Origin: a virus
DNA: 23,687 nucleotides
IMG/VR virus record: IMGVR_UViG_3300037185_000071
Span: 1 to 23,687 of that record
Reading direction: 5' to 3' (one strand)
The translations under genes and the position numbers were made by a program. The first letter of the stretch is position 1. Each line of letters starts with the position of its first letter. This document shows, one piece after another, positions 2,972 through 16,366 of the stretch. The notes below the pieces were generated by a model. That model saw nothing but the letters and a program-made list of their open reading frames with translations. It had not been told where the DNA came from and did no database searches.

Positions 2972-5068
2972 TCAGGATCCGCCGCTCGCAGTGGCGCTGG
3001 AGACCAGGCGCTGCATGGAGGGAGCCTGGCCGACGGCCTGGCCGCGCATGTAAGCAGCGCGCCAGTTGGCGGTGCCGGCGCGGTGGTCCAGGTACTTCAC
3101 GAGCATCATGGAGAAGCCCGTGTCCGGATTGGTGACCTGCTCGATGATCGCCGTCGCGGGCACGTCGCCCATCGCCTGCGTGTAATCGTTGGGCAACCGG
3201 GCGGCGACCGCCAGGCAGTCGGGCGTACCGCAGAAGCCGATCAGGTTTTCGCCCGTCGGGATGTTGCCGACCTGGTAGGGTTGGAACCCCGCGACCGGAG
3301 GCAGCACGTTCTGGGTCAGCAGTCCCTTGAACTCGGCCTGGAAGGCGGCCATCTGGACGATCGAGGAATCCTTGCCCAGGGCATGGAAGGCCGAGCCGTT
3401 CAGCATGGCAAAGCGGCTGGCAGACGGCACACCGCGGCCAAGGAAGGCTTCGTCGACCGTCTGCAGCGTATCGCGGCAGAAGCTCGAAGCGGCGATCGCC
3501 GTCTCATGCGGGAAGTGCGCCACCGTCACCAGCGACATGATCGCATCCCAGAAATCCTTCGCGACCGCGTAGAATGCGCCTTCAACCTGTTCGCCGAACA
3601 GATCGCGCTTCGTCTCGGCCAGTTCGTTCGCGTTGAACGAAATCGGCACGAACTGGTGGGCGTTGATCACGATCGGCACATCGATCGTGGTCGAGCTCGC
3701 GCCCGCGGCCAGGTCGTAGCCGCCGGCGGTCGGATCGTAGCTCTGCACAGTCGGAACGGTCCGCAGGCGGGTCATGACCGTCTGACCGAAAGAGATCGGG
3801 TTGTCCGAGAAATCGGTCGTGATGGCGAAGAGCGCCGGGAAGCGCAGCTTGAGCAGCGTCAGGGACCGCTGCAGGATCAAGTTTCCGGCGAGCGAGCCCA
3901 GCGAATTGGCCGCAAGCAGCGGCAAGAGCTGGAAGGCCGGATCGGCAAAAAGATTCCGGATGTCCTTCGCGTAAATCGCCGCGCATTCCTGGGCATGCAC
4001 CTTGGTCGCACCGCACTTGGCCTTGTAGGCGCGGAGGACTTCGAGGACACCGTCCTTCACCTCGAACACGCCAGGTTGCGTGACGCGGGTGAGCACGGTC
4101 GCGCCGGGCAGCGCGGCCAGGAGTTCGGCATGCTTCGGATCAGCCTCGATGAGACCGGTCCATTTCGCCTGCAACGCTTCGTCCTTGGGAGGCAGCGCCC
4201 CGCGGGCGACCGCTGCATTGACCAGGGCCTTGGCGTCGTCCTTGCGGCGCTGGGCGTCCTTGGCCTTGAGGGTTTCGAGCTCGGCCTCCTTTGCCTTGAG
4301 GCTCTGGAGTTCGGCGAGCTGGGCCTTGAGCGCGACGCCTTCGGCGCCGGCGGTCGGCAGTTTGTCGACGTGCTTCGCCACGAGGGCGGTGAGTTGATCG
4401 TCGGTCGCATCGGCGGGTACAGGAACCGCCAGCGCGGCCAGGATCTTGATGAGCGTTTCTTTGTTCATGACTGGATTCTGGTTGATGTTCCGGGGACCGC
4501 CGGATGCGGGATTGGTGGTTTCGGCGCCGGCCAATCGGGCGGCGATTAGCGCCGGCATTGCGGCGCCGAAAGCGGGAGCGTTCACCAGGCCGCCGGCGGC
4601 ATGGCCGGCGGGCAGCCGGGTAACGCGCCTGGTCTTCGGGTTGACGAAGAAGGCAGGGGAAAAGGAATAGTAGACTTTGCCGCGCAGGAGCTCCTGACCG
4701 AGCGAGGTCCATTCGACCTTGGCCATGATGCCTTGCGCCGGATCCCAGCGGAAGCCGGTCACCCATGCAGTGGCCTCCTCATCCTTGTGATCCTTGTCGA
4801 GGTAGACGCGCTGGCCCTTGCCGAGGATGGCCGCAAAGGAGGCCGCGATCAGGTTGCCGCCGGCTTCATCGCATAAGACGGTGGCATCGACGGGCGCGCC
4901 CGCTCCGGTGAAACAGCTGATCTCATGGGTCCCGGCCGGCATCCAAACGATTTCCCCTGGCAGATCAGCGGTGGCGTCGGTAGGCAGCGCGAGCGGCATG
5001 GCGGCAGCCAGGGCGATCAATTCCGGATCGGAGGAGGCAGCGAGAAGGAAGAAAAGTTTTCTGCTCAT
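2972..5068 (-). CDS. Protease-scaffold-major capsid fusion (Mu I/Z-T like)
   Basis: One 698-codon frame appears to hold three head functions. Residues 1-180 look like the Mu I-type prohead protease, with a candidate catalytic His in LDKDHKDEEA (H94) and Ser in YYSFSPAF (S135 or S137). Residues 201-340 form a Lys/Glu/Ala-rich coiled-coil scaffold (repeats of LKAKEAELETLKAKDAQ near 257-272). Residues 345-698 resemble the gpT-like major capsid protein (FADPAFQLLPLLAANSLGSL, TDFSDNPISFGQ, and QRLVS near the end). In Mu, I with nested Z and the capsid gene T are separate. An internal ATG at 4468 opens the scaffold part exactly where Z would start. The gene overlaps the portal stop by ATGA. How free capsid subunits arise, by internal initiation or by self-cleavage, is not shown by the sequence. 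Confidence 0.82.
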   Translation of the reverse strand: MSRKLFFLLAASSDPELIALAAAMPLALPTDATADLPGEIVWMPAGTHEISCFTGAGAPVDATVLCDEAGGNLIAASFAAILGKGQRVYLDKDHKDEEATAWVTGFRWDPAQGIMAKVEWTSLGQELLRGKVYYSFSPAFFVNPKTRRVTRLPAGHAAGGLVNAPAFGAAMPALIAARLAGAETTNPASGGPRNINQNPVMNKETLIKILAALAVPVPADATDDQLTALVAKHVDKLPTAGAEGVALKAQLAELQSLKAKEAELETLKAKDAQRRKDDAKALVNAAVARGALPPKDEALQAKWTGLIEADPKHAELLAALPGATVLTRVTQPGVFEVKDGVLEVLRAYKAKCGATKVHAQECAAIYAKDIRNLFADPAFQLLPLLAANSLGSLAGNLILQRSLTLLKLRFPALFAITTDFSDNPISFGQTVMTRLRTVPTVQSYDPTAGGYDLAAGASSTTIDVPIVINAHQFVPISFNANELAETKRDLFGEQVEGAFYAVAKDFWDAIMSLVTVAHFPHETAIAASSFCRDTLQTVDEAFLGRGVPSASRFAMLNGSAFHALGKDSSIVQMAAFQAEFKGLLTQNVLPPVAGFQPYQVGNIPTGENLIGFCGTPDCLAVAARLPNDYTQAMGDVPATAIIEQVTNPDTGFSMMLVKYLDHRAGTANWRAAYMRGQAVGQAPSMQRLVSSATASGGS

Positions 5069-7008
5069 TTGGATCTTTGTTTGGTGGAAGGAAGTTTGGA
5101 GTAGCTGTGTGCGGCGCCGGCGATCATCGCCTCGCTGAGGCCTGCCTCCAGGGCGTCTGCCAGTTCGGACGCGCCAATCATCGTCGGGGCGAGGGCGTCG
5201 AGCTTGGCGATGAAGGCTTCCAATTCGCCGACCACGTCCAGATTGCCCGCCTCGATGGCAGCCAGGAGCGGTTGGGCAGCCTTGCGCAGCGGAGCCATGT
5301 CGTGGGCATGAGCCAGGGCGAGGGCCTTGGCCGTGGCCTCCGGCATCTGGTAGTTGCCTGGGATTGCGGCGGACCCGGCGGGCTGAGCGGCGGCGCGGGC
5401 ATTTAACGCGTCGCTACGAGGTACGGCGGAGCGCGGCGAATCAACGATAAGGCCGTTCGCCGTCGTTGTGGCTATGTCAGTACCCCCCGAACCGTCCTGG
5501 GCGGTTTGCGGGGCTGCGCTGGCATCGGACCCCGAGGGGCCTTTGCCCCCCGGGGATGACCCCGACAATCCTGGCAGCGACCCGCCTTTCGGCGGGAAGT
5601 CAGAAGGTGAAGGTTGGCCGCCGATCGTTTCGTCGCCTTCTTCAGGCAAAGGAAGACCGTGCCTCTCATAGAAATCCGAAGCCACGAAGCGCACGCCCTG
5701 GATGGCGGCGAGGATTGAATCACGCGTCGCGAGCTGCACGGGATCCGGATCGCCGGCGAGGTCAGGCACGACCGTCGGCGTCTCAGAGACATCTCCCCAG
5801 TTCCATCGGAGGATGGCTGGGACGAGCTGGTAGTTGAGCAGATTGGCGCACCATTGCGCGGCGGAATGGAGCACTTCCCGGCGGACCTCGCCCTGTAATT
5901 GGGCCTGGCCGCCACCATTGAGCCCCTGCGAATGCTGGGCGCCGGAGCCCTCCTGCCCGAGGATGAGCAGGTCGCAAGCCTTGTCCGCCAGCTGCTGGAT
6001 GAGGATCTGAGGATTGTCCTGGGAGCGGGTAACGGCGTCTTTGAAATCGAGCGTCGTGCCGGCAGGGAATGCCGCATATCCGGCCGTAGCCATCTGCTGC
6101 AGCATCTGCGTCAGTGTGCCGAGCAGTTCCGGACGGCTGGGATCATAGGTCGCCCAGCGGAACGGAACGCCGAAGATCTGCGCCGTGGCGAGCAACCATT
6201 CCCATCCAAAAGTGATACCAACCCAGTAGGGAGCCAGAGCGCGCAGCAATGCGGTGGCGCCCGGAGCGCCGGAGCGCGCCTGCCAGATCCCGCACCAAAA
6301 CTGCCCTTCCGGGAAAGGCTGCCATGAGGTGCTGGTGGGCGTCGGCGTCCAGACCGTGGATCCGGAGCCCAGCAGTCCAAGCTCTGTGCCGTCCGGACTC
6401 CACCCATAGCGTCGCGGCGAAAGCATGTGAGCGCAGCGCGGCAGGATACCCTCCGGGGTCTGCGACCAGCCAACCTCGTTGACCGCGATGCCTTTGCCAT
6501 AGGCGTCAAGGACGTGGTAGAGCGCATCTTCGAATCCCAGTTCGAGCGTGCCGGGCCGCGGCCGCCAATTCTTGAGCGCCGCTTCCACCAGGTCAGCCTT
6601 CTCTTTTGCGCTATCGGTGGGCTTCCCTCCCCCCGTGACATGGGGTTGCACCGTGTACTTCGCTCGCGAGGCATTACTGCGGACCTCCGCAAGGTTCTTC
6701 AGCAGCCGCGGCCAGGTGTCCTCCATGAGGGCGAACAGCTCATATTGATCGGTCAGAGAGCCCTGGGCGGCATTCTGTAGCACCCAGCGGATCTGCGATG
6801 GATCGAGCCGGCGATTCGCCCAGAACATCGGGGCGAAGTCGGAGACCTTCGGCTGGACAAGATCCTGGCGTGGAGCCGCCGTGGGCCTCTTCGCGGGAAT
6901 CACCGGAGGGGCCTCGCCCGGTTCCGCGGCCATGACCATTAGGTCGGGCGGCATTACTTCCAGGCTTTGGCCCTGTGACTTCTTGAAGATGGATAGAGGG
7001 AGTTTCAT
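5065..7008 (-). CDS. DUF935-like portal protein (Mu gp29-like)
   Basis: This 647-residue protein matches the portal subunit of Mu-like phages, the dodecameric ring at the head vertex through which DNA enters and leaves. Family-like features include the N-terminal LDPSQIRWVLQNAAQGSLTD segment, repeated Trp-rich strands (FGWEWLLATAQIFGVPFRW), and a later LADKACDLLILGQ segment. It follows the large terminase by 6 bases and overlaps the capsid fusion by ATGA. Residues about 470-495 are a Gly/Pro/Ser-rich linker encoded by palindromic GC-rich DNA, followed by a helical C-terminal domain. The protein is longer than a typical portal of this family, mainly because of that tail. The leader is TGACCCCCG directly before ATG, with no purine-rich site. 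Confidence 0.85.
   Translation of the reverse strand: MKLPLSIFKKSQGQSLEVMPPDLMVMAAEPGEAPPVIPAKRPTAAPRQDLVQPKVSDFAPMFWANRRLDPSQIRWVLQNAAQGSLTDQYELFALMEDTWPRLLKNLAEVRSNASRAKYTVQPHVTGGGKPTDSAKEKADLVEAALKNWRPRPGTLELGFEDALYHVLDAYGKGIAVNEVGWSQTPEGILPRCAHMLSPRRYGWSPDGTELGLLGSGSTVWTPTPTSTSWQPFPEGQFWCGIWQARSGAPGATALLRALAPYWVGITFGWEWLLATAQIFGVPFRWATYDPSRPELLGTLTQMLQQMATAGYAAFPAGTTLDFKDAVTRSQDNPQILIQQLADKACDLLILGQEGSGAQHSQGLNGGGQAQLQGEVRREVLHSAAQWCANLLNYQLVPAILRWNWGDVSETPTVVPDLAGDPDPVQLATRDSILAAIQGVRFVASDFYERHGLPLPEEGDETIGGQPSPSDFPPKGGSLPGLSGSSPGGKGPSGSDASAAPQTAQDGSGGTDIATTTANGLIVDSPRSAVPRSDALNARAAAQPAGSAAIPGNYQMPEATAKALALAHAHDMAPLRKAAQPLLAAIEAGNLDVVGELEAFIAKLDALAPTMIGASELADALEAGLSEAMIAGAAHSYSKLPSTKQRSK
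5530..5596. repeat. GC-rich palindromic block inside the portal gene
   Basis: Several short inverted repeats are packed together here: CCCC-GA-GGGG (5530-5539), GGGGC-CTTT-GCCCC (5536-5549), GGGG-ATGA-CCCC (5552-5563) and CCCGCC-TTTC-GGCGGG (5581-5596). The block encodes a Gly/Pro/Ser-rich linker and differs in texture from flanking portal sequence. It looks like a small palindromic element captured in frame, but a home-grown low-complexity linker cannot be excluded. Confidence 0.4.
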
Positions 7009-15021: not shown

Positions 15022-15291
15022 TTAAAAGGCACCGCCCAGAGAAGCGTTGGAGCTTGTCGGCCCCGCGGCACCACCCGCAGACGACCTATCCCCAGGCGGC
15101 GCCAAGGGTTCACGTTGCCGGTCGAGACTCGGGTGGTTGCCCGGGCCGTGAATGACCGATCGCCAGTCCAACCTGGCGACATGTGCAACGCCGTGCAGCG
15201 CAGCGAAAAAGTCAAGATTGGAAACATGATCATGTCGCGAGCTCCGGGGCGTATTCCTCGCCGCGTTTGCCGAATGTGGAGGCGACGGCAT
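15022..15291 (-). CDS. Possible small gene without a clear start
   Basis: Between the DUF6745-like stop and the 109-residue gene, about 219 bases, one minus-strand frame reads as protein (SNLDFFAALHGVAHVARLDW, GPGNHPSLDRQREPL) and stops at 15022. Its only clear ATG is at 15291, inside the DUF6745-like gene with a 62-base overlap. A coupled ATG at 15233 opens a different frame, one base off; a -1 slip on the T5 run near the DFF codons would join the two. It may be a short real gene, a frameshifted gene or a remnant. Confidence 0.35.
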   Translation of the reverse strand: MPSPPHSANAARNTPRSSRHDHVSNLDFFAALHGVAHVARLDWRSVIHGPGNHPSLDRQREPLAPPGDRSSAGGAAGPTSSNASLGGAF

Positions 15292-16366
15292 TCTGCGGCG
15301 TGAGCACCTGTGGCTTCTGCTGGGCCATCCAGGCGCGCTTCCGCTCCTCTGGCCAATTGCCGGGAGGCAGCGGACGCAACTGGGGATCCACGCGAAGGAA
15401 GTAGTCTTTGAACGTGCCGTCCGGCTCAGCTGTCGAGTTGGTGACTTTAACCATCACGATTGGCTCGTCACTGATCACATCCTTGCGGTAGAGAATCCCC
15501 CGCGCATCGCGGGAGATCTCCTGGGCGCCGGCGTCGACCAGGTATCGCGCCGGACCATAGCGGTCGATCATGACTCGGCGGATCTCCGCATTGGTCTCGC
15601 GGCCGATGCGCTCAACGGTGATCGACTTCGGGTCATCAATGACGTCAGCAGGCACCCGCACGCCATGGACGGCATAGACAGCGAAGCCGTCAGGATACGC
15701 GACCGCTGGGCCGGTCTCGCAATGGAGACGGTTGCGATCGTCGCGATGGATGACGGTCGGATGTTCGGAAATAAACGCCCAGTCCGGGAAAAGGATGGAC
15801 CACCCTGCAGCCGCGGTGAACTCAAAGTTCCCATCGAGCTTGGATCGATCGAATCCCAACTCGCCGGCAGCATCGTAATAGGAGCACCACCATGCGTCGA
15901 ATTGGCCGAAGTCATACCACCACCAGAAGTTAAGTACGTCGCTGAGTTTAGCGCGGAGTTGATCGCTGAGTTGAGCGCTGAGTTGAGCGCGGAGTTGATC
16001 GCGGAGTTGAGCGCGGAGTTGAGCGCTGAGTTGATCGCTGAGTTGATCGCTGAGTTGATCGCGGAGTTTAGCGCTGAGTTGAGCGCGGAGTTGATCGCGG
16101 AGTTGAGCGCGGAGTTGATCGCTCAACTCCGGAGAAATCGCGGCGCTTTTGCTGCGCAAAAGCGCGACTGCGTAGGCGACCTCTCTCGGGCTGCGAAGGA
16201 TAAACACCGTGCTGGGCTTCGCTCGGCCTCCAGCGGCGTACAGCTTCTCCAATGCAGCTTCGACCGTGGCGCGTTGAACAGGCTCGGTGGATAGGCCGAT
16301 CTTCAGCCATTTCTCGCGGATCGCTGGCAGTTTCTTCTCAAAACCTCTCGGGAATTTCGTAATCAT
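15230..16366 (-). CDS. DUF6745-like protein with a 16-unit tetrapeptide repeat
   Basis: This 378-residue protein has an N-terminal helical part (1-80), sixteen tetrapeptides of the form L-(S/R)-(D/A)-(Q/K) at 81-144, and a C-terminal DUF6745-like region. That region includes NFWWWYDFGQFDAWWCSYYD near 146-165, RNRLHCETGPAVAYPDG, and VMIDRYGPARYLVDAGAQEI followed by NSTAEPDGTFKDYFLRV. The family has no known function that I can name. The repeats are heptad-poor but helical and could form an adjustable spacer. The start ATG at 16366 follows the C-rich leader GACCCCG. The repeat number is likely to vary between relatives because the DNA units are near-identical 12-mers. Confidence 0.75.
   Translation of the reverse strand: MITKFPRGFEKKLPAIREKWLKIGLSTEPVQRATVEAALEKLYAAGGRAKPSTVFILRSPREVAYAVALLRSKSAAISPELSDQLRAQLRDQLRAQLSAKLRDQLSDQLSDQLSAQLRAQLRDQLRAQLSAQLSDQLRAKLSDVLNFWWWYDFGQFDAWWCSYYDAAGELGFDRSKLDGNFEFTAAAGWSILFPDWAFISEHPTVIHRDDRNRLHCETGPAVAYPDGFAVYAVHGVRVPADVIDDPKSITVERIGRETNAEIRRVMIDRYGPARYLVDAGAQEISRDARGILYRKDVISDEPIVMVKVTNSTAEPDGTFKDYFLRVDPQLRPLPPGNWPEERKRAWMAQQKPQVLTPQNAVASTFGKRGEEYAPELAT
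15935..16126 (-). repeat. Sixteen 12-bp tandem repeats inside the DUF6745-like gene
   Basis: The array is exactly 192 bases, sixteen units, in frame. On the plus strand most units read TTGATCGCTGAG or TTGAGCGCGGAG with only two or three variable bases. Units 2-5 and 10-13, counted in the protein direction, encode the same order of residues except one Lys/Gln change, so an eight-unit block seems to have been duplicated. The two end units are divergent. Confidence 0.9.

Follow-up and report, generated by a model that had tools for sequence, protein, structure and literature searches.

In phage HK97 the scaffold, known as the delta domain, is fused to the N-terminus of the HK97-fold capsid protein gp5, and the protease gp4 is encoded by a separate gene. 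Fusions of protease and capsid are presumably what NCBIfam NF045541 (scaf_prot_MCP2) describes, judging from its title; by name and length, this model and PHROG 4523 ('major head and protease protein', which is also matched by Mu T) represent protease plus capsid chains of ~640 positions. In phage Mu (AF083977) a protease-scaffold of the PF10123/PHROG 328 type is encoded by I, the scaffold Z has a nested start, and the capsid gene T follows directly as a separate gene (ATGA overlap with I/Z) of the PF10124/PHROG 371 family. One gene encodes both protease and capsid in Arthrobacter phages of clusters AM, AU and AN and in Rhodococcus RRH1 (PMC5513430); the same has been described for Microbacterium cluster EE (PMC11749239) and Rhodococcus cluster CF (PMC13313380). 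Akkermansia phage Chantilly (ON453895) has a protease-scaffold related to the one examined here, whose nested Met also has an open leader, but its capsid is encoded separately, 3 nt downstream, and belongs to another family (PHROG 212).

We analyzed a virus record of 23,687 bases (the window), in which protease, scaffold and capsid are encoded by a single gene (Table 1). The protease-scaffold type, the nested start and the position of the capsid directly after the scaffold are those of Mu. Unlike in Mu, the capsid belongs to PHROG 283 and is fused, so that the putative nested product would be scaffold plus capsid. The product predicted from the nested start, Met201, has the layout of HK97 gp5, whereas the protease is of Mu I type and fused upstream. 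RRH1 Orf7, the only one of the actinobacteriophage fusions compared, falls in PHROG 2263 with a sub-threshold match to the HK97-protease model TIGR01543, and has no PHROG in common with the window protein. No NCBIfam model, NF045541 included, matched the window protein at E ≤ 1, NF045541 had no match in two related genomes, and PHROG 4523 did not match the window protein. A full-text literature search, with subscription papers mostly outside its reach, found no account of a capsid fused to a protease of Mu I type. Protease-capsid fusion as such is already known; as far as shown by the databases and literature searched, the pairing of a Mu I/Z module with a PHROG 283 capsid and a conserved nested start is new.

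The window also encodes a terminase large subunit, Mu Gp36, a MuA-type transposase (PHROG 310), a MuB-type ATPase (PHROG 296) and a protein with a weak match to Mu Gam. Their profile matches are in keeping with a Mu-like transposable phage. Assemblies labelled Opitutaceae and Akkermansia contain related genes, as do many other genomes of the same phylum, and from this distribution the host is probably a member of the Verrucomicrobiota.

Table 1. Features of the fused head gene and its upstream neighbor (window coordinates; residues numbered from the first ATG)
Feature	Position	Strand	Description or basis
Fused protease-scaffold-capsid gene	2972..5068	(-)	698 codons, ATG start, 73.7 kDa, stop-free
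Protease domain, residues 36-163, Mu I type (PF10123 / PHROG 328)	4580..4963	(-)	Profiles, AlphaFold2 domain model
His94 codon, candidate catalytic His	4787..4789	(-)	Invariant in 30/30 aligned proteases
Ser137 codon, FSP motif, candidate nucleophile	4658..4660	(-)	Ser and next Pro invariant in 30/30 aligned proteases
Disordered linker, residues 164-200, predicted cleavage region, contains nested-start leader	4469..4579	(-)	pLDDT < 50 at 164-202
Leader of nested ATG, 20 nt	4469..4488	(-)	A-rich, 2 G, unstructured (folding)
Nested in-frame ATG, Met201, homologue of Mu Z start	4466..4468	(-)	Alignment, open leader
Scaffold region, residues 201-375 (coiled coil 203-318, C-terminal helices 341-375)	3944..4468	(-)	AlphaFold2 model
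Disordered scaffold/capsid junction, residues 376-396, predicted second cleavage region	3881..3943	(-)	pLDDT < 50
Capsid domain, ~residues 386-698 (33 kDa), HK97 fold, PHROG 283	2975..3913	(-)	Profile and structure matches
Mu-type portal gene, directly upstream of fused gene	5065..7008	(-)	PF06074, E 3.7e-58

Three domains in one open frame

The initial annotation of this DNA had described an uninterrupted 698-codon frame joining an I-type protease, a coiled-coil scaffold and a gpT-like capsid domain, and had suggested profile searches of the protease and capsid halves and a structure prediction of the full chain. The frame is there, without a stop, and its ATG overlaps the stop codon of the portal gene (ATGA); neither a sigma-70-type promoter nor an intrinsic terminator was found within it. 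When all retrieved loci (L numbers below) were searched with custom profiles, the fusion proved to be kept as one open frame in 18 different sequences, with identities down to ~31%. They come from independent metagenomes (16 IMG/VR sequences) and from two bacterial genome assemblies, L033 (labelled Akkermansia muciniphila) and L038, which was drawn from the same phylum. On the opposite strand of the fused gene there is a GTG frame of 488 codons (3083-4549, +), probably a by-product of GC-rich codons.

The AlphaFold2 model of the full-length chain has a moderate mean pLDDT (66.8), and the domain borders are clear. It resolves a beta protease domain, a disordered stretch (164-202), a helical scaffold (203-318), a second disordered stretch (323-339), helices (341-375), a third disordered stretch (376-396) and a capsid fold, and agrees with the profiles on the presence of protease, scaffold and capsid in one frame. 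PF10123 (Mu-like_Pro) matches residues 83-292 (E 1e-18; 68.4 bits against a curated cut-off of 25.2) and the head maturation protease family PHROG 328 matches residues 23-363 (E 2.6e-24). His94 and Ser137 form a conserved Ser/His pair, as in assemblin-like proteases, and are candidate catalytic residues on the strength of the alignment. Modeled alone, the protease domain reaches a mean pLDDT of 87.7. Its top matches in the PDB are mostly herpesvirus assemblins, with TM up to ~0.4 and E > 0.1 throughout, so that the likeness in fold is only suggestive.

The separate search of the capsid half led to a different family from the one expected. PHROG 283 (major head protein) matches residues 414-605 of the whole protein (E 1.5e-10), and the match improves to E 1.2e-11 with residues 372-698 as the query. 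The gpT identity was ruled out, since residues 372-698 gave no match at E ≤ 1 to PF10124 or PHROG 371, whereas Mu T, used as the positive comparison, scored 418 bits against PF10124 and fell in PHROG 371. A protease-scaffold module of Mu I/Z type has therefore been joined to another capsid family. In Foldseek the capsid part matched 8zdh_A (E 1.3e-12), the gp8 protein of mycobacteriophage Douge, which is its closest solved relative (profile E 1.5e-7), and BFVD capsids also matched the model, the TM normalized to target length being as high as 0.85 (A0A6J5RK18). From these model and profile matches, the capsid part is assigned the HK97 fold and the family PHROG 283. Among the relatives, L033 and L040 match the P22 coat model weakly, below the cut-off.

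The nested start at Met201

The ATG at 4468, proposed in the initial annotation as the scaffold start, is in frame at residue 201, and it aligns with the annotated start of Mu Z at residue 179 of Mu I (window VMNKETLIKILAALAVPVP; Mu PMNETLRKLLARLGVTVP). The RNA from -25 to +20 around it has a folding energy of only -1.9 kcal/mol, which ranks 7th of the 674 codons. In 20 of the 22 tested homologues that have a Met in the linker, fused and split alike, this Met lies in an unstructured stretch, one of the most open in its gene, and in ~19 the codon with the least structured surroundings is at most 5 codons away. The leader is mostly G-poor in fused and split homologues alike. G count (p 3e-14) and folding energy (p 1e-9) both set the linker Mets apart from the remaining internal Mets, in a comparison whose rows are related and not independent. 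The local RNA at the linker Met is structured in L018 and L020, and the fused gene of L008 has an in-frame GTG in the linker instead of a Met. We found no Shine-Dalgarno motif at Met201, nor is there one at many other starts of this genome. An A-rich leader would also arise by itself from a disordered linker rich in N, Q and T.

Four close alleles share a run of 48 conserved degenerate codons without synonymous change over residues 162-214 (4427-4585, -). The next longest run is 12 codons, and none of 5000 shuffles gave one as long; amino-acid changes and an indel are present in the same region. In distant pairs there is no synonymous dip at residues 191-200 (0.44 against a mean of 0.37), and a shared recombination tract could be the source of the low variation in the close alleles. 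For these two reasons synonymous-site constraint was dropped as proof of the nested start, for which the run is supporting evidence at best. A further internal start, giving the capsid alone, was also considered and rejected, as between residues 201 and 432 there is no ATG, only GTG and TTG codons.

Split and scaffold-capsid relatives

In Chantilly and many other genomes the module is split into a protease-scaffold gene of ~310-380 codons and a separate capsid gene (~300 codons where seen). Read by eye, the separate scaffolds end in helices similar to residues 341-375 of the window protein, and the stand-alone capsid genes begin where residues 376-396 align; the fusion therefore joined complete neighbors. 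L027, L028 and L030 show a third layout, in which the protease has its own gene while scaffold and capsid are joined in another, of 535-573 aa. The protease genes upstream of scaffold-capsid in these loci (L027:267-3731 and its counterparts in L028 and L030) are up to 1154 codons long, and motifs such as GAPxGNxNAAGPH and GTSEGAxKGW recur in them.

The capsid tree has a branch (97/96) that sets the fused and the scaffold-capsid rows apart from the others, and the scaffold-capsid rows are nested in this group. The protease tree likewise places L027, L028 and L030 among fused sequences, with L006 as their neighbor (97/94). Such nesting in both trees is what fission at the nested start would give, and a scaffold-capsid chain evidently suffices. 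As read from the trees, the history would most simply comprise a single fusion and a later fission at the nested start. Beyond this, the protease tree requires three to four state changes, so that protease modules have also been exchanged.

Other arrangements were seen nearby. Other Verrucomicrobiota genomes contain long ORFs (L069-L077) with a domain of PF10123 type; these were rejected as fusions, as they have no capsid-profile match. L045 (1321-3477) joins an inorganic pyrophosphatase domain (PF18823, E 6.3e-48) to a protease domain of Mu I type within one frame. L081 (3009-5195) has a PHROG 283 capsid gene that is sister to the fused clade and follows a protease-scaffold gene, with an in-frame TAA before the capsid gene; this protease-scaffold is not of Mu I type and looks S49/ClpP-like by eye.

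Predicted products and alternative explanations

We consider it likely that the gene gives rise to two chains, protease-scaffold-capsid and, from Met201, scaffold-capsid, which would co-assemble and then be cleaved at the linkers. The full-length chain of 698 aa (73.7 kDa) would carry all three functions, while initiation at the nested ATG, the counterpart of the Mu Z start, would yield a chain of 498 aa (52.8 kDa). The latter would probably form the bulk of the procapsid and work like HK97 gp5 with its delta domain. Full-length chains would join it through the scaffold and capsid parts common to both, and so carry some proteases into the procapsid. The Ser137/His94 protease is predicted to excise itself near residues 164-200 after assembly and to release the capsid near residues 376-396, leaving a mature capsid protein of ~310-320 residues (~33 kDa). 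Observation supplies the fusion, which is intact and conserved, the identity of the domains, a conserved nested start whose leader is open, and the scaffold-capsid genes of the relatives; use of the nested start, the share of each product, cleavage, its positions and the order of events are what the model would add.

On balance we also favor a broader reading, in which this single gene with two starts would specify the complete procapsid shell of a tailed phage bar the portal. The minor chain would be protease-scaffold-capsid and the major chain scaffold-capsid, the ratio of the two starts would set the protease copy number, and in a sister lineage the nested start would have become the start of an independent gene. 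One family links three known head designs: protease-scaffold and capsid separate; all three fused; and protease separate with scaffold and capsid fused, as in HK97. This suggests a route by which HK97-like scaffold-capsid fusions could originate, in which neighboring genes fuse and the joint gene is later divided at a nested start. The system is also compact, and protease dosage is testable in it by altering one start codon.

Alternatively, the full-length chain alone could be made, each subunit bringing its own protease and scaffold and maturing by self-cleavage, with the nested Met a leftover from a Mu I/Z ancestor. The existence of other protease-capsid fusions (RRH1 Orf7; NF045541; Arthrobacter phages, PMC5513430) is consistent with this, as are the lack of a nested ATG in L008 and of a Shine-Dalgarno motif at Met201. 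Nevertheless, it leaves aside that the Met and its open leader are kept across homologues whose linkers are otherwise unalignable, and that relatives encode scaffold-capsid without the protease. One protease per subunit would, moreover, be expected to crowd the procapsid interior. We regard production of the full-length chain alone as unlikely, though it deserves serious consideration.

Quite improbable, in our judgment, is a protease that is made in cis in a chain which is cleaved while it is being translated or shortly afterwards, so that the head is assembled from three separate proteins as in Mu. In favor of this, the scaffold has a disordered linker at either end, and the split relatives assemble from separate proteins. 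However, head proteases normally act inside the assembled procapsid, and the scaffold-capsid fusion has been kept in L027, L028 and L030, whose protease is encoded separately. Finally, a sequencing or assembly error that fuses two genes (the initial annotation had named a sequencing error hiding a stop as refuting) has practically no probability: the same frame is open in 18 different sequences, two genome assemblies among them, so the fusion is due neither to chance nor to assembly error.

Two other genes of the window deserve mention beside the two-chain model that we prefer. A glycosyltransferase gene (1645-2904, -; PF00535, PHROG 14775) lies between the capsid and Gp36 genes. It occurs at the same place in L001-L005, L015 and L019 and was not found in L016, L018, L026 and L033, and because of this patchy presence it looks like a later insertion. 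In the DUF6745 gene (15230-16366, -) the domain is preceded by near-identical short repeats (DQLRAQL / SDQLSAQL).
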